A stretch of DNA of 8,464 bases from JBFLXN01 sp040755715 [NCBI: Candidatus Edwardsbacteria bacterium] (GTDB lineage Bacteria; Edwardsbacteria; AC1; JBFLXN01): NCBI GenBank assembly GCA_040755715.1, contig JBFLXN010000121.1, positions 1-8,464 on the forward strand. The letters are read 5' to 3'. The position numbers were made by a program, and so were the translations under genes. This document shows positions 2,860-8,399 of this stretch, piece by piece. The notes below the pieces were generated by a model, which worked only from the letters and a program-made list of their open reading frames with translations, had not been told where the DNA came from and did no database searches. Each line of letters begins with the position of its first letter. Position 1 is the first letter of the stretch.

Positions 2860-5415
2860 ATGCAGGCAGTAGCGATTATTTCCGTTGTTTGTTTAACGAT
2901 TGCTTTCTTAGTTCCTATCTTTGCTTTTATTCTTTATTTTTCCCAGAGAAGAAAGGTGATAACTTATCTTACTTTGGGCTTGATTTCTATTTATGCATTT
3001 ATTTTTGAGTTTGCTCAAATAATGATTTATTCGGCCGAAGATAATTTTCCTTCGGCTCTATTCTGGCATCGCTTCCAACATTTGGGAGTGATTTTGTTTA
3101 TCCCCGGAAGCGTCCACTTTGCGACCTCCTTCATTCAAAAAGAGAAGCGAGGTCTTCTTTTTTGCCTTTATTTGTTGGCTTTCCTCTTACTTCCTTTAAG
3201 TTGGACAAATCTCTTTTTGCATCCGCCTCCAGTAAAGACTTTTTTCGCCTGGCAAGGGACTCCTGGTCCGCTTTATTATGTCTTCGCGGTCCTCCTTATA
3301 ATAGTAGTAATTTATTCAATTATTCTTATCCTAATAGGCTTCCAAAAGAGCGACCGACTGCTGGAAAGAAGAAATCTCCTGTTCGTTCTTTTAGGTTCCT
3401 CTCTCTTTGCTTTAGCTGGGTTCGTGGACCTGGCGGCCACTATGAAATTCTTACAGTTCTATCCTTTATTTGAATACGGCTTTTTTGCTTTCATTTTCTT
3501 TTGTGGTTTATCTGCCACATTTTCTTTTGTGAACATTAACCAACAATTGAGTAGAGCACATCAAAAATTGCAGGAACATACCGAGCATTTGGAAGAAAGA
3601 ATTAATCAGCGAACCAAAGAGCTTTCTCTCATCAATCAAATCAGTCAGGCAGTCACTTCTATTCTTGATTTAGATTTACTCCTTCAAGAAGCGGTTCATC
3701 TCATTAATAGAACGCTGGGTTCCCTTTACACCGCTATCTTTCTCCTCTCGGAGGATAGGTCTGAATTGAAACTCAGAGCCTATGTCGGTGAAGAAGATAC
3801 CAGAACAATCAATCCAGCAATTAAATTAACTCAAAAAGGTTTAATTCCCTGGGTGGTGATGAACCGAGCCCCCTTAATAATTCCTGATGTGACCCAAGAT
3901 TTTAGATACCTCAAAGGAATAGAAGGTGTGATTTCAGAAATGGTAGTGCCATTGAAGCGAGAAGAAAAGATTATTGGTGTCATTGATGTAGGTAGTTGCC
4001 GGCTGAATGCTTTTTGTTTAAGTGAATTGCGATTATTAGAGCAAATAGCCGCCCCACTCAGTATTGCCATAGAAAATGCAAAGCGCTATGAAGACCTTTT
4101 AAAAAAAGACAGTCTAATTGCCAAGAAAGTTGAACAACTTTCTACTATTTTGAGTGTGGGCAATTTCTTAAAATCAGACCTTGAAGTAAAGGAAATTTTG
4201 AAGGCAGTGTGCAAAGCGGCTCAGGAAACCAGTGGTTTTCAGGTGATTGCTATTGGACTGGTCAATGAAAATGACGGAACGTTTCAATTGCAAGGTTTTG
4301 CCGGAGTGCCTGAAGAAGAAGAGAAAAAGTTAGCTTCACAAAAAACTTCTTTTGAGAAAATGCGTTCCCTTTTGCAAGACAAATTTTTAATTAGCCATTC
4401 CTATTTTGTCAGTCATGAGTACAAGCTGTGGGAAGAGTCAAAAGAAAAGGGAATGACTTATATCCCCCCTCAACCAGAAAAAGCAGGACTCAACGGTTAT
4501 CCCTGGCATGCAGAAGACGCCCTTTTAATTCCTCTGGAGACCAAGGAAAAAAAGATGATTGGTTTAATAGAAGTAGATGCGCCTCTTGATGGAAAAGTGC
4601 CAACAGAAGAGACCGTTAAGACCTTAGAAATTTTAGCTAATCAGGCAGCACTTGCCTTAGAAAATGCCCGCTTGTTTGAAAATCTCAAAAAGGCAAACCA
4701 AGTCAAATCCGATTTTGTTTCTAATGTCTCTCATGAATTGAGAACACCTTTAGCCTTGATTAAAAGCTACACAGAAACAGTTTTTAGACATAAGGATTTA
4801 ACAGAATTGCAAGAGAAATCTTTCTATGAAATTATTACTTCAGAAATAGACCGACTTTCAAATCTAATTGAAGACCTTTTAGACCTCTCAAAACTTGAAG
4901 CCGGCCGGGTAGAACTAAAACCTACCTATATCAACTTTTATCCACTGGGTAAGAAGCTAATGGCCAAGTTTGAAAAAGAAGCAGAAATAAAAGGAATAAA
5001 TCTTTCTACTGATTTCTCAAAGGAGATGTCGCAAATTTTTGTTGACAGTGCTTCCTTAGAACAGATGCTTACCAATCTTCTGGCTAATGCCTTCAAATTC
5101 ACACCACCTAAAGGGAAAATAGAAATGGGAGCAAAAGTCATTGGCCATAGCGGTCAAATTTGGATTAGCGATACGGGTAGAGGAATTTCCAAAGAAGATT
5201 TACCACATATCTTTGAGAAATTTTATCAAGCGAAGACGACGCAGGAAGAGATAAGAGGAACAGGATTAGGGCTTTCTATTGTTAAATACTTGGTGGAAGC
5301 CCAGGGCGGAAAAGTGGAAGTGGAAAGTGAATGGGGCAAGGGAAGTAAGTTTACTCTTTATCTCCCACTACCCACTAAAGAAGAGACGATACGGAGCTTA
5401 TTTGACAATGAGTAA
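2860..5415 (+). CDS. Membrane sensor histidine kinase: 7TM, two GAF domains, HisKA and HATPase
   Basis: This 851-residue kinase senses a signal and phosphorylates a response regulator, almost certainly the product of the next gene. The N-terminal part has seven hydrophobic segments (about 3-27, 33-57, 67-92, 97-119, 136-161, 172-194, 202-224), matching the 7TM sensor module of histidine kinases. A coiled coil (about 230-260), GAF 1 (about 270-408) and GAF 2 (about 430-603, with a DAPLDG motif) follow. The catalytic core is intact: SHELRTP with phosphoacceptor His625, N-box Asn743 in NAFKFTP, G1 box DTGRG from Asp771, and G2 box GTGLGL from Gly800. There is no receiver domain. I start at the ATG at 2860, just before the first membrane helix. 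An in-frame GTG at 2809 would add 17 residues, but it lies inside the hairpin repeat's right arm and is less likely. Neither start has a strong ribosome site. The ligand is unknown. Confidence 0.93.
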   Translation: MQAVAIISVVCLTIAFLVPIFAFILYFSQRRKVITYLTLGLISIYAFIFEFAQIMIYSAEDNFPSALFWHRFQHLGVILFIPGSVHFATSFIQKEKRGLLFCLYLLAFLLLPLSWTNLFLHPPPVKTFFAWQGTPGPLYYVFAVLLIIVVIYSIILILIGFQKSDRLLERRNLLFVLLGSSLFALAGFVDLAATMKFLQFYPLFEYGFFAFIFFCGLSATFSFVNINQQLSRAHQKLQEHTEHLEERINQRTKELSLINQISQAVTSILDLDLLLQEAVHLINRTLGSLYTAIFLLSEDRSELKLRAYVGEEDTRTINPAIKLTQKGLIPWVVMNRAPLIIPDVTQDFRYLKGIEGVISEMVVPLKREEKIIGVIDVGSCRLNAFCLSELRLLEQIAAPLSIAIENAKRYEDLLKKDSLIAKKVEQLSTILSVGNFLKSDLEVKEILKAVCKAAQETSGFQVIAIGLVNENDGTFQLQGFAGVPEEEEKKLASQKTSFEKMRSLLQDKFLISHSYFVSHEYKLWEESKEKGMTYIPPQPEKAGLNGYPWHAEDALLIPLETKEKKMIGLIEVDAPLDGKVPTEETVKTLEILANQAALALENARLFENLKKANQVKSDFVSNVSHELRTPLALIKSYTETVFRHKDLTELQEKSFYEIITSEIDRLSNLIEDLLDLSKLEAGRVELKPTYINFYPLGKKLMAKFEKEAEIKGINLSTDFSKEMSQIFVDSASLEQMLTNLLANAFKFTPPKGKIEMGAKVIGHSGQIWISDTGRGISKEDLPHIFEKFYQAKTTQEEIRGTGLGLSIVKYLVEAQGGKVEVESEWGKGSKFTLYLPLPTKEETIRSLFDNE

Positions 5416-5454
5416 AAATAAGGCTCTTTATGAAAATTATGGAAAGGATTCATT

Positions 5455-5524
5455 GCAAAATTAGCAATGCAAAATTAGCATTTTAAATTGCTAATTGCTA
5501 ATTTTGAACTGTTAACTGATAATT
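5455..5524. repeat. Heptamer-phased palindromic tract in the kinase-regulator gap
   Basis: From 5455 the sequence can be cut into ten consecutive 7-mers in one phase, for example GCAAAAT, TAGCAAT, GCAAAAT, TAGCATT, then GCTAATT twice, GTTAACT and GATAATT. It also folds: CAAAATTAGCAAT (5456-5468) is the perfect reverse complement of ATTGCTAATTTTG (5494-5506), and inside this TTAGCA (5475-5480) pairs with TGCTAA (5489-5494). It fills half of the 138-bp gap. A weak promoter can be read in it (TTGCTA 5496-5501, GATAAT 5518-5523, 16-bp spacer), which would let the regulator operon be transcribed apart from the kinase. Confidence 0.7.
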
Positions 5525-5543
5525 TTTCGTTCCTAAATGTGGA

Positions 5544-5548
5544 AGGAG
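5544..5548 (+). promoter_or_regulatory. Shine-Dalgarno site fixing the response-regulator start
   Basis: AGGAG within GGAAGGAGA lies 5 nt before the ATG at 5554. It is the only good ribosome site in the gap. It rules out the longer reading from the TTG at 5488, whose first codons come from the heptamer repeat rather than from the receiver domain. Confidence 0.85.
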
Positions 5549-5553
5549 ATTAT

Positions 5554-6264
5554 ATGCCAAAAGCAAAAATCTTAGTGGTTGATGATGAAGTTAAACTGGT
5601 AGAAATAATAAGACTAAACTTAGAAAAAGCTGGCTATGAGGTGTTTGAAGCTTACAATGGTGAGGAAGCATTAATGGTAATGAAGGAAGCAAGACCCGAC
5701 CTAATTATTGCCGACATTATGATGCCTAAGATGAATGGCTACCAATTGTGTCGTCGCGTGAGACAAAACCCAGAATTTTACTCCATCGGTTTTATTTTTC
5801 TCACTGCCAAGGCTCACACCGAAGACGAAGTCAAAGGATTATGGGTGGGAGCTGACGACTATGTGACAAAACCTTTTGATATAGACAGACTATTAGCCCG
5901 AGTAGAAGCCCGACTGAAGAGAACTCAAGAGACAAAAGAAAGGGCCCAAAAGGGAGAACTTTCAGGAAAAATCACTAGCGGCCAATTCATTGATATTCTT
6001 CAAGTGTTAGAGCTGGGGAAGAGAAATGGGGTGTTGACCGTAAAGAGCGGGACAGAAACGGGCTATATCTATATCAGAGAGGGCAAAGTAGCTGGTGTTC
6101 ATTTAGAAGTGAAAGATGAAAAAGCAATCTACGAAATTCTTGAGTGGAAAGAAGGTGAATTTCATTTTGAACCCCGAGAAATTAGCGCAGAAAAAAGACT
6201 TTCTCTTTCAGTTCAACAGCTTCTATTAGAATGGGCGAAACATTACGACGAATGCAAAAAGTAA
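5554..6264 (+). CDS. Response regulator with receiver and PATAN (DUF4388) output domain
   Basis: This 236-residue protein should receive phosphate from the kinase encoded upstream. The receiver domain (about 3-123) is complete: acidic pair Asp10-Asp11, phosphoacceptor Asp54 in IIADIMMP, Thr84 in FLTAKA, Tyr103 as the aromatic switch, and Lys106-Pro107. After a charged linker (about 124-133) comes a PATAN/DUF4388 domain (about 134-230, GELSGKITSGQFIDILQVLE, then GVLTV, YIYIREGKVAGVHL and the FHFEP ending). PATAN domains occur in PatA-type regulators and are thought to mediate protein contacts rather than DNA binding. The protein therefore probably acts on a partner such as a motility or polarity component, not as a transcription factor; that is inference. 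The start at 5554 is set by the strong ribosome site. The gene overlaps thiD by 13 bp. Confidence 0.93.
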   Translation: MPKAKILVVDDEVKLVEIIRLNLEKAGYEVFEAYNGEEALMVMKEARPDLIIADIMMPKMNGYQLCRRVRQNPEFYSIGFIFLTAKAHTEDEVKGLWVGADDYVTKPFDIDRLLARVEARLKRTQETKERAQKGELSGKITSGQFIDILQVLELGKRNGVLTVKSGTETGYIYIREGKVAGVHLEVKDEKAIYEILEWKEGEFHFEPREISAEKRLSLSVQQLLLEWAKHYDECKK

Positions 6265-7043
6265 GACTGGCTTTGACCATCGCTGGGTCTGACCCTACTG
6301 GTGGGGCAGGGATTCAAGTAGACTTAAAAACCTTTAGTGCCTTTGGCCTCTATGGATTTTCTGTGCTCACTGCTATTACGGTGCAAAACACCGTAGGAGT
6401 CAAAGAAATTTTTCCTGTTCCGGCTGATTTTGTTTCTCACCAGTTAGAAGCGCTTTTATCTCTTTGGACATTTCCAAGCAGTAAAGCCGGTATGTTGACA
6501 AATTCATCTATTGTAGAAAGTGTGGCTGAGAAAATCAAAGAATCTCAGATAGGAAAATTTGTTCTTGACCCGGTAATGAAAGCAAAAAATGGCACATTGC
6601 TTTTAGATGAACCAGGGCAAGAAATGTTAATTAAGAAATTACTACCGCTAACCTGGCTAATTACGCCAAATATTGAAGAAGCAAAAATTATTACAGGAGT
6701 GGAAATAAAGAACTTAACCACAATGAAAAAAGCCGCCCGAGTGATTAACCAAATGGGAAGCAAAAATGTTTTAATCAAAGGAGGACACCTTACGGGAAAA
6801 CCTTTGGATTTGCTCTTTAATGGCAAGAGTTTCCGCACTTATGAAGATGAGCGTTTGCCAAAAGAGATGCATGGAACAGGTTGTGCCTTTTCCGCCGCCA
6901 TTACCGCCTTATTAGCTAAAGGTGAAAGTCTGGAAAAATCTGTGGAAAAAGCAAAAATGTTTGTCAATCGGGCAATTGCCGATTCATTATGCTTAGGAGG
7001 AAAGTATAGCCTTTTTCAAACAATCCGCAGCGGAATCAAATGA
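6252..7043 (+). CDS. thiD: Hydroxymethylpyrimidine/phosphomethylpyrimidine kinase (ThiD)
   Basis: ThiD phosphorylates HMP and then HMP-phosphate in the cytoplasm, giving HMP-pyrophosphate, the pyrimidine half of thiamin. The 263-residue product has the normal length and family signature: LTIAGSDPTGGAGIQVDLK (about 7-25), the TAITVQNT segment, VLDPVMKAKNG, ITPNIEEA, VLIKGGH, and the active-site loop HGTGC with Cys211. It belongs to the ribokinase-like fold. The ATG at 6252 aligns with usual ThiD N-termini; an in-frame ATG at 6231 would add seven residues. Neither has a clear ribosome site, so translation is probably coupled to the response-regulator gene it overlaps. No TPP riboswitch and no other thi gene is seen here, so it is probably expressed with its unrelated neighbours. 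No fused ThiE or ThiN domain is present. Confidence 0.94.
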   Translation: MQKVRLALTIAGSDPTGGAGIQVDLKTFSAFGLYGFSVLTAITVQNTVGVKEIFPVPADFVSHQLEALLSLWTFPSSKAGMLTNSSIVESVAEKIKESQIGKFVLDPVMKAKNGTLLLDEPGQEMLIKKLLPLTWLITPNIEEAKIITGVEIKNLTTMKKAARVINQMGSKNVLIKGGHLTGKPLDLLFNGKSFRTYEDERLPKEMHGTGCAFSAAITALLAKGESLEKSVEKAKMFVNRAIADSLCLGGKYSLFQTIRSGIK

Positions 7044-7050
7044 GGGAAAG

Positions 7051-7776
7051 ATGAAAGAAATGCTTATGAGACTTTATCAACTACAAATGATTGATAATCG
7101 TATCAATGAACTTTTCCAAAAACAAAAAGATTTACCAGAACAAGTTGTAACTTTACAAAAGTTACTTCAGAGACGAGAGGAAGAATTGGCGATTAAGAAA
7201 AGACAACTTCAGGAAGTCCAGAAAAAGAGAAGGTCTGCTGAACAGGATTTAGAAGAAAATAATGAGAAGATAAAAAAGTATCAAGCCCAGCTCTTTCAAG
7301 TGAAAACCAACAAAGAATATACAGCCATTCTTCATGAAATTGAATTAGGGAAGAAAAAATCGTCCGCTATAGAAGATATTATCTTATTAGCTATGGAAGA
7401 AATAGACAAACTTCTTAAGGAAGAAAAAATATTGGAATTCCAATTAGCCAAAGAGCGAGAAGAAATAAAAACTGAACGAGGAAAAATTGAAAAGGCAATT
7501 GTTAAAATTGAAGAAGATTTAGCCATTGAAAAAGACCGGCGAAGGAATCTTACAGTTAGACTTTCAAAAGACCTTTTATCTCTCTATGAGCGAGTGGCGA
7601 AAGGAAGAGATGGCATCGCTGTGGTTAACATAAAAGAAGGATGTTGTGGTGGCTGCTATATCTCTCTGCCACCCCAACGAATTCAAGAAATAAAGAAGAT
7701 GGACTTATTAATTACCTGTGAACATTGTGGCCGAATTCTTCTTGAGGTAAAGGAGACGAACGGCTATGCTATTTAA
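7051..7776 (+). CDS. Coiled-coil C4 zinc-ribbon protein (COG1579/zf-RING_7 type)
   Basis: This 241-residue protein matches the widespread bacterial family of long helical hairpins with a C-terminal zinc ribbon. Residues about 5-180 are highly charged coiled coil, interrupted at about 82-92 by the family-typical QVKTNKEY turn. The ribbon follows: Cys199-x2-Cys202 (CGGC) and Cys223-x2-Cys226 (CEHC), an intact four-Cys zinc site, with a further Cys198. Members are thought to bind nucleic acid or act as adaptor proteins, but the exact role is not settled, so I give no gene name. It begins 7 nt after thiD with GAGGG at 7042-7046 as ribosome site, and it overlaps the RNase HI gene by 11 bp. A zinc-ribbon gene beside an RNase HI gene is, from memory, a recurrent arrangement in bacteria, which supports a link to RNA or DNA metabolism. 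Confidence 0.9.
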   Translation: MKEMLMRLYQLQMIDNRINELFQKQKDLPEQVVTLQKLLQRREEELAIKKRQLQEVQKKRRSAEQDLEENNEKIKKYQAQLFQVKTNKEYTAILHEIELGKKKSSAIEDIILLAMEEIDKLLKEEKILEFQLAKEREEIKTERGKIEKAIVKIEEDLAIEKDRRRNLTVRLSKDLLSLYERVAKGRDGIAVVNIKEGCCGGCYISLPPQRIQEIKKMDLLITCEHCGRILLEVKETNGYAI

Positions 7777-8284
7777 GAAAATTATTTTGGAAATTGATGG
7801 GGCTTGTAGAGGTAATCCTGGCGAAGCCGCTGTCGGAGTGGTAATTCGCCAAATACTCCAGACTACAGACGAGAGACTGGAGACCTCGGACATAGGACCT
7901 AAAACTTCGGACATCGGGTCAACTGAAGAATTTTCTGCCTATTTAGGTCTCGCTACCAATAATGTCGCCGAATATAAAGCACTACTCTTTGGTTTGAACA
8001 AAGCCAAAGAATTCGCTGTTCGCTGTTTGCAGCTGGCAAATAGCAAACAGCAAATAGCAATATTGGTAAAGACTGATAGTGAACTCTTGGCTAAACAAAT
8101 AAATGGTGAGTATCAGGTAAAATCCCCGAAACTCAAATTGCTTCACAGAGATACACTTAGGCTTCTTGAGAATTTTTCTGATTGGAAAGTTATCTCTGTT
8201 TCCAGGACTGAAAATCGTCAGGCTGACAGATTAGCCCAGTTGGAACTCCGACAACACATCAAGCATAAAAAAGATAAGAGATAG
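7766..8284 (+). CDS. rnhA: Ribonuclease HI family protein with two repeat-encoded insertions
   Basis: RNase HI cleaves the RNA strand of RNA-DNA hybrids using two metal ions. The 172-residue product keeps all four catalytic acids: Asp11 (IDGACRGNPG), Glu69 (TNNVAEYKALL), Asp104 (VKTDSELL) and Asp154 (NRQADRLAQ). Spacings compared with E. coli RNase HI (D10, E48, D70, D134) are informative. Asp-Glu is about 20 residues longer, Glu-Asp about 13 longer, and the last interval is shorter, as in family members without the basic handle. The extra residues fall at about 32-53 (with TSDIGPK-TSDIG) and about 84-99, exactly where the DNA is heptamer-phased repeat. Both lie in likely surface loops, so activity may be retained. 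AGGAG at 7751-7755 lies 10 nt before the ATG, and the gene overlaps the zinc-ribbon gene by 11 bp. It appears to be the last gene of the run. Confidence 0.9.
   Translation: MLFKKIILEIDGACRGNPGEAAVGVVIRQILQTTDERLETSDIGPKTSDIGSTEEFSAYLGLATNNVAEYKALLFGLNKAKEFAVRCLQLANSKQQIAILVKTDSELLAKQINGEYQVKSPKLKLLHRDTLRLLENFSDWKVISVSRTENRQADRLAQLELRQHIKHKKDKR
7861..7923. repeat. Heptamer-phased GAC tract inside the RNase HI gene
   Basis: Nine consecutive 7-mers run from 7861, most starting with GAC: GACTACA, GACGAGA, GACTGGA, GACCTCG, GACATAG, GACCTAA, AACTTCG, GACATCG, then a degenerate GGTCAAC. Nine units make 63 nt, or 21 codons, so the reading frame is preserved. They encode about residues 32-53, a Thr/Ser/Asp-rich stretch with no counterpart in ordinary RNase HI, in the turn between the first two predicted strands. 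Confidence 0.75.
8015..8063. repeat. Second heptamer-phased, hairpin-forming tract inside the RNase HI gene
   Basis: Seven consecutive 7-mers starting with GC run from 8015: GCTGTTC, GCTGTTT, GCAGCTG, GCAAATA, GCAAACA, GCAAATA, GCAATAT. The tract also contains a perfect 9-bp inverted repeat, GCTGTTTGC (8022-8030) against GCAAACAGC (8043-8051), with a 12-nt loop. It encodes residues 84-99, before the strand bearing Asp104, and accounts for the long Glu69-Asp104 spacing. Confidence 0.7.
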
Positions 8285-8304: not shown

Positions 8305-8364
8305 AAAAACTCCTATCTCTGAAATTAATTTTGCTTTTTTCTACTTTTTCTCTGTTAGCTAAAT

Positions 8365-8399
8365 TTCAAAAGTGAACCATTTAAACTTCAAAAGTGAAC
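8365..8399. repeat. Paired 13-bp repeats, probable insertion-sequence end
   Basis: TTCAAAAGTGAAC occurs at 8365-8377 and again at 8387-8399, 22 bp apart. Each copy is itself an imperfect palindrome (TTCA/TGAA arms). One copy lies inside the last codons of the minus-strand transposase fragment and the other just beyond its stop. Multiple short repeats at the tip are characteristic of IS21-like and related elements, so this is probably one terminus of the element continuing beyond the right edge. Confidence 0.5.

Follow-up and report, generated by a model that had tools for sequence, protein, structure and literature searches.

What makes stretches of unrelated sequence share one 7-nucleotide (nt) period is the question raised by contig JBFLXN010000121.1 of a Candidatus Edwardsbacteria genome (GCA_040755715.1), which was analyzed as a whole stretch of 8,464 nt, here called the window. 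A first-pass annotation had described three tracts in which the spacing and not the sequence is conserved, and had suggested that one shared process generates or permits units of 7 nt. Each of the three belongs to a known class of bacterial repeats, the heptanucleotide arrays, with tandem 7-nt units beyond chance. Two of them lie within a single gene, that of ribonuclease (RNase) HI, a coding location on which the first-pass annotation was silent. As their origin we favor, at a probability of roughly one half, an error-prone recopying of local sequence in steps of 7 nt, with fold-back, which is specific to certain genomes and whose products are tolerated in loops and spacers. The features concerned are as follows.

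Tract 1, 5454..5526, no strand assigned: right-part units ATTGCTA, ACTGTTA and ACTGATA; inverted repeat, RNA stem at about 5456-5506.
Tract 2, 7853..7923, + strand: GACNNNN-like heptamer units; coding, about residues 32-53 of RNase HI.
Tract 3, 8012..8063, + strand: heptamers from TTCGCTG to ATAGCAA, hairpin-forming; coding, about residues 84-100 of RNase HI.
RNase HI gene, 7766..8284, + strand: 172 amino acids (aa); PF13456, E 1.2e-16; tracts 2 and 3 in frame.

Autocorrelation over the whole window (width 42, lags 2-21) gave positions of at least 60% identity solely at lags 7, 14, and 21. There were 69 such positions at lag 7, against a shuffle mean of 0.1, and the lag-7 peak of 33/42 at position 8012 exceeded the highest value of 26 in 40 dinucleotide shuffles. 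Taken singly, tract 1 (5455-5524) had 36/63 lag-7 matches, tract 2 (7861-7923) 32/56, and tract 3 (8015-8063) 30/42, with none of 5000 shuffles as high in any of the three; the score of tract 1 was equalled at some lag of 4-12 in 0.04% of 5000 shuffles. All three tracts therefore beat shuffles at lag 7, but the strict period claimed for them does not extend through tract 1, whose left part (5454-5483) is a 14-nt duplication (lag 7 P 0.12) and whose right part (5484-5526) is heptameric. A two-unit trace at 10-23, suggested earlier as a fourth tract, is at chance level (P 0.048 alone), since the window outside the tracts contains 22 pairs of units that match at 6/7 or better, compared with 14-25 in ten shuffles.

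The two coding arrays coincide with lengthened loops of RNase HI. The first loop (tract 2) has 32 residues in the window, against 8-20 in homologues (mode 14 in 63 rows), and the second (tract 3) has 21, against a mode of 10 in 70 rows (one row 36, the rest up to 17), so that the loops exceed the modal homologue length by 18 and 11 residues with the frame kept. These lengths derive from two alignments, one of 80 homologues (the top-ranking of 494 confirmed matches) and one of 88 rows that includes three second copies (L088 of L002; L083 and L104 of L006). For structure modeling, the window sequence was aligned with 32 of these 80 loci (33 sequences in all; L018, with a stop in the matched range, was omitted). 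In this alignment the acidic residues D11 and E69 are invariant, and D104 and D154 are present in at least 90% of sequences; we take these four to be the catalytic positions. The predicted structure had a mean predicted local distance difference test score (pLDDT) of 90.3, the poor part being residues 31-50, the first insert, while the second insert was modeled as a helix end plus the following loop. The model matched solved RNase HI structures (4e19, RNase H1; template-modeling score normalized to target 0.87-0.90). By this prediction, the RNase HI fold and its four catalytic acidic residues are retained despite the inserts.

Other genomes were sampled as fetched loci and stretches, in part only, and open reading frames (ORFs) were called mechanically. 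Within the parts sampled, a lag-7 excess appeared in several genomes, in which lag 7 leads, and was absent from others. Arrays occur in some other uncultured bacteria, members of the nearest phylum among them, with densities reaching about 100 lag-7 arrays per Mb. A Parcubacteria genome (G014, 120 kb) had 14 lag-7 tracts, two of them one duplicated sequence, and zero at all other lags of 4-13; a Jorgensenbacteria genome (G015, 172 kb) had 18, with one at lag 6, and a Planctomycetota genome (G001, 102 kb) had 12. The phylum of G003 includes the candidate division TA06 genome G002, and G003 itself encodes the closest relative, among the matches listed, of a zinc-ribbon protein of the window (43% identity). 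Two members of this phylum are array-rich (G049, 11 lag-7 tracts in 266 kb; G089, 6 in 93 kb), G003 and G038 had two tracts each (168 and 120 kb), and G002, G065, G083, G090, G108, and G116 had none in the 17, 80, 33, 40, 20, and 120 kb sampled, respectively. Array-making activity differs greatly between genomes, and the presence of rich and array-free genomes in one phylum makes a hunt for the responsible factor possible. Arrays lay mostly within called ORFs in 32 of 67 cases, below the expectation from a coding share of 0.82-0.93. A general preference for gene starts was rejected, as 13 of 27 spacer arrays across all sampled genomes were near a start (10.9 expected) and 11 of 27 near a gene end (11.5 expected).

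Many of the host genes are core genes. All 19 array-bearing ORFs that were scanned, of 29 outside the window, have a Pfam family, and the families include GatB, GltX, LepA, TrmD, CCA-adding enzyme, UvrC, phosphoglycerate kinase, MetK, and a PurL-like protein. Four families (GatB, LepA, CCA, and GltX), picked since one member bears an array, provided a test set of 91 relatives found by homology, with the query genes excluded. These relatives contained 17 lag-7 tracts in 14 genes (GatB 5/24, LepA 3/24, CCA 6/24, GltX 0/19), of which the two in the C-terminal part of CCA (L225 and L236) are to be discounted. Among the other lags of 4-23, there was one tract each at 9, 12, and 20, two at 21, seven at 14, and zero at the rest, including 6; codon shuffles of all 95 genes produced two lag-7 tracts over 20 rounds. 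Lag 7 dominates in these genes even though units of 6, 9, or 12 nt would preserve the frame with every unit, so the dominance of 7 in coding DNA probably stems from how arrays are made and not from selection. The same point argues for an origin in the making of the bacterial 7-nt preference, a question open since 2007 according to the available portions of two later papers (PMC4679880, PMC4692102).

The glutamyl-tRNA synthetase family GltX offers the clearest length comparison. The G015 protein has a 21-aa insert (63 nt, nine heptamer lengths) relative to 14 of 19 relatives that are exactly 21 aa shorter; three others are 22 aa shorter and L184 has a different 16-residue insert at the same place (L183 is the row of the query itself, and the alignment of L190 fails at the insert site). 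Exact 21-nt increments were rejected as a rule, holding for GltX against these 14 of 19 relatives and failing for RNase HI and most other genes. By eye, the insert in L184, the GltX of the sister species G177, has a CACGAA-like word at a spacing of about 9-11 nt, not 7. One loop of the CCA-adding enzyme bears arrays in the query and in 5 of 24 relatives, with words that mostly differ (L226 and L229 are alike), and species-level relatives show word and length differences at the same site in both GltX and CCA. Different words in one loop across species indicate that permissive loops are reused while the words turn over. The same loops of LepA (L303-L326), GatB (L278-L301), and CCA (L224-L247) vary much in length among species of the candidate phyla radiation (CPR), even where no array is visible, and the array-less, length-variable loops are perhaps decayed arrays. 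As 7 and 3 are coprime, the same 7-residue peptide is encoded by a perfect array in each of the three frames. The literature searched, with subscription journals thinly covered, gave no account of heptamer arrays within core genes of candidate phyla; for annotators, such arrays account for odd loop inserts in the proteins of these phyla.

How the arrays arise can be approached through their units. In 35 arrays of at least six units, unit identity fell from 0.77 between neighbors, a value inflated by the picking of arrays on lag-7 similarity, to 0.42 between units six apart, whereas order-permuted arrays stayed at about 0.60 throughout. This decay along the array points to copying from the neighbor with errors. 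It also modifies the idea that spacing and not sequence is conserved, which is true between arrays, as the differing tracts of the window illustrate, but not within them, where neighboring units are most alike (window and other-genome arrays pooled). The consensus words are diverse, with 59 different words in 73 arrays. Words differing by at most one base made up 14.0% of within-genome pairs and 3.8% of between-genome pairs (66 arrays; 0/1000 label permutations), which bears out the expectation that word families recur within a genome. Together with the lead of lag 7 in several sampled genomes, this recurrence supports a common process making or tolerating 7-nt units. Exact three-unit arrays of a single word recur in distant lineages: those of GAAATCC were found in 3 of the 41 genomes from the G015 family and 8 of the 120 from the G003 phylum, and those of GAAGTCA in 0 of 41 and 6 of 120, respectively; backward-read controls matched four times in G015 (GAAATCC) and twice in G134 (GAAGTCA). 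Conservation by phase ranged from 0.96 to 0.52, only slightly more uneven than the 0.94 to 0.58 of a uniform-substitution null. The idea that a conserved trinucleotide anchors the units, GAC in tract 2 and ACT/AGT in arrays at large, was rejected as a general rule on this near-null phase profile and on the presence of ACT/AGT in 29 of 73 words, fewer than GAA, AAT, AAG, or AAA; G049, with its fixed CAGA core described below, departs from this. Finally, an inverted partner (up to 2 mismatches over 14 positions) lies within 150 bp of 40 of 67 arrays, compared with 72 of 250 control comparisons (Fisher P 6e-6, a rough value as controls reuse arrays).

In the favored explanation, replication or repair would recopy the preceding ~7 nt, often with errors, in a slippage-like manner with a 7-nt step that acts as its own ruler, and the copying would often fold back to leave an inverted arm. 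Arrays would be effectively neutral and would persist where harm is small, in spacers and protein surface loops, survival within a gene requiring a net length change that is a multiple of three and the lack of a stop codon. The step could possibly come from a dedicated enzyme or from an ordinary property of a polymerase. Several observations weigh against this explanation. Lag 8 is also present (4 tracts in G001, 6 in G049), and in the mixed remainder of the sample (1148 kb) lag 15 has 8 tracts and lag 7 has 7. Of 23 measured tracts, 7 bring zero length gain, and in the rest the gain over the mode ranges from 2 to 35 aa; among these gains only 7, 21, 28, and 35 aa are multiples of 7, in a comparison where few relatives share the mode in several loops. 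The RNase HI gains are likewise not multiples of 21 nt, and the GltX insert is part heptamer array and part other sequence. Insert lengths that are mostly not multiples of 21 nt mean that slippage by whole units is insufficient on its own. The C-terminal arrays of CCA sit where all 24 relatives are equal in length, and a conserved peptide may itself favor lag 7 there. Within-genome word sharing and a family of fixed-core hairpins in G049 point to dispersal or selection beyond local copying.

That hairpin family bears on the main rival, according to which the arrays are small dispersed elements that spread between loci, sometimes in frame, the heptamers being the two arms of a hairpin. Such elements would resemble the Rickettsia palindromic elements, in which one defined palindromic element makes in-frame inserts in core proteins; in-frame inserts in conserved proteins, RNase HI and others, are common to both. 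The G049 set comprises 12 loci and one in G038 (L327-L339), gathered for their resemblance to a single array or a single word, and 11 of the 13 are two-armed, with CAGANNN units, a short turn, and TCTGNNN units, so that CAGA/TCTG recurs as a fixed core every 7 nt. The second arm is common to loci (matches at E <= 0.001 in 15 of 156 flank pairs, all right flanks), and L274 and L276 share 32 identical bases in the second-arm flank and, by eye, a short left flank as well. The recurrence of words within genomes fits this explanation too, as do identical 21-mers on several contigs of a few genomes, with none in most (GAAATCC is on four contigs each of G074 and G092). However, beyond the arms nothing was shared in the G049/G038 family at E <= 0.001, same-word loci of G120 and G077 lack common flanks (G074 shares 10 bases), lengths vary, and the drift of units along arrays is ill-fitting for copies of one element. 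No transposase is known to accompany the arrays, although no search for one was made. Where the Rickettsia element is a single defined one, the present arrays appear to share no more than heptamer arms, and do so in one genome, G049. We regard dispersed elements as possible but not probable for the arrays at large; G049 may be one case in which a leader hairpin made of heptamers spreads or is selected, and tract 1 of the window is similar to these hairpins in shape and place. One hairpin of the family precedes a murG-like gene (L334, by reading alone). Elsewhere in G049 (contig C7, L153), spacer pieces at 18320-18890 and 19510-19600 match many other places in the genome; they fall below the main heptamer threshold and form another dispersed repeat family. 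The two sides of the array at 7888-7949 of L153 match different contigs (C5 and C24) of G038, a relative in the same family, and this array may lie at a rearrangement breakpoint.

Local copying could also be stated in a stronger form, which we advance with considerable reserve: some uncultured lineages might encode a dedicated process with a 7-nt ruler that writes heptamer arrays and fold-back arms into spacers and the loops of universally conserved enzymes and spreads favored words within the genome. Candidate ruler enzymes would be an error-prone polymerase, a reverse transcriptase, or a terminal-extension enzyme. If true, such a process would keep supplying its genome with leader hairpins and its proteins with new loops.

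It is unlikely that the period is read by a DNA- or RNA-binding protein whose sites must stand 7 nt apart, with selection preserving that distance; a translational regulator of this kind has been proposed for TAACTGA repeats (PMC4679880, available portions). Tract 1 would suit this reading: it occupies the spacer that separates the histidine kinase gene (stop at 5415) from that of a response regulator, whose start is taken as ATG 5554 after GGAAGGAG (the mechanically called ORF opens at TTG 5488), and it ends 27 nt before this start. In addition, the G049 hairpins mostly stand a short way upstream of start codons: in 10 of the 11 two-armed loci a frame that stays open for 40 codons or more has its start codon no farther than 30 nt away, compared with a fraction of 0.35 of random G049 spacer windows under a stricter gene definition. 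Against this stand the 13 of 27 spacer arrays near starts, hardly above the 10.9 expected, the 59 words in 73 arrays with barely uneven phase conservation, the decay of unit similarity with distance, and the 32 of 67 arrays mostly within called ORFs. A protein that reads the period, one of the possibilities raised by the first-pass annotation, is thus not well supported outside the CAGA/TCTG family of G049. Least probable is that tracts 1 and 3 function as hairpins, whether as terminator, attenuator, or RNA-processing site, with incidental heptamers: they do fold more stably than shuffles (tract 1, z -2.5 on the + strand; tract 3, z -3.7 on + and -5.4 on -), but tract 2 folds no better than shuffles (z -0.1), tract 3 is in the middle of a coding region, and the stem of tract 1 has no T run directly after it.

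Among described repeats, the short tandemly repeated repetitive (STRR) heptamers of cyanobacteria such as Calothrix, to which the tracts had been likened, are a fair comparison: as far as the accounts at hand extend, both are cases of several tandem heptanucleotides per genome. The words of STRR heptamers are fixed, and we know of no in-gene inserts made by them.

Heptanucleotides are the most abundant class of long simple sequence repeats in most prokaryotic genomes, and slippage tied to a polymerase contact of 7 nt had been put forward for them (Mrazek et al. 2007, as summarized in the available portions of PMC4679880 and PMC4692102). In the same summaries, units that are multiples of three are likeliest in coding DNA. 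The present arrays share tandem 7-nt units with these repeats but, as far as those summaries go, differ in being degenerate, in words that shift along and between arrays, and in lying within conserved core genes of uncultured lineages. TAACTGA repeats of Beggiatoaceae, Cyanobacteria, and Bacteroidetes are mostly intergenic, often just before start codons, with some in ORFs (PMC4679880, available portions). Like them, tract 1 contains AACTGTTAACTGATAA, and the CCA genes L226 and L229 have AACT-type units; however, the direct repeats of TAACTGA that define that class are lacking in tract 1, which has a single copy and no tandem ones. From what is available of that paper, those repeats also consist of one word, found in ORFs mostly at protein ends, whereas the present arrays have many words, and those in ORFs lie within domains. 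The GGGAATC and GGGGA(T/C)T heptamers of Xanthomonas and Nostoc are G-rich and quadruplex-forming (PMC4692102, available portions, which also mention three cyanobacterial heptanucleotides). Within those limits they resemble the present arrays as degenerate heptamers with some inverted pairs, but the run of at least three G per unit that marks them is absent from the sequence of all three tracts of the window. Tandem repeats of archaeal Borgs occur in ORFs, add disordered peptide, and are genome-specific, with slippage discussed as their source; in the accessible part of that account (PMC9879509) all in-ORF units have lengths divisible by three, whereas the present unit is 7. Within genes, arrays whose unit length is not a multiple of three are a new variation on the known heptamer repeats.

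The genes of the window, all on the + strand, encode a PstS-like binding protein, a tetratricopeptide repeat (TPR) protein, a histidine kinase, a response regulator with DUF4388, ThiD, a CT398-like zinc-ribbon protein, and RNase HI. Two further repeats were noted in it. A 22-nt direct repeat upstream of the PstS-like gene (39-60 and 99-120, 91% identical, starts 60 bp apart) is unrelated to the 7-nt period. An 18-nt direct repeat downstream of RNase HI (8360-8377 and 8382-8399, 94% identical, starts 22 bp apart) could belong to the end of an insertion sequence or to a regulator site.

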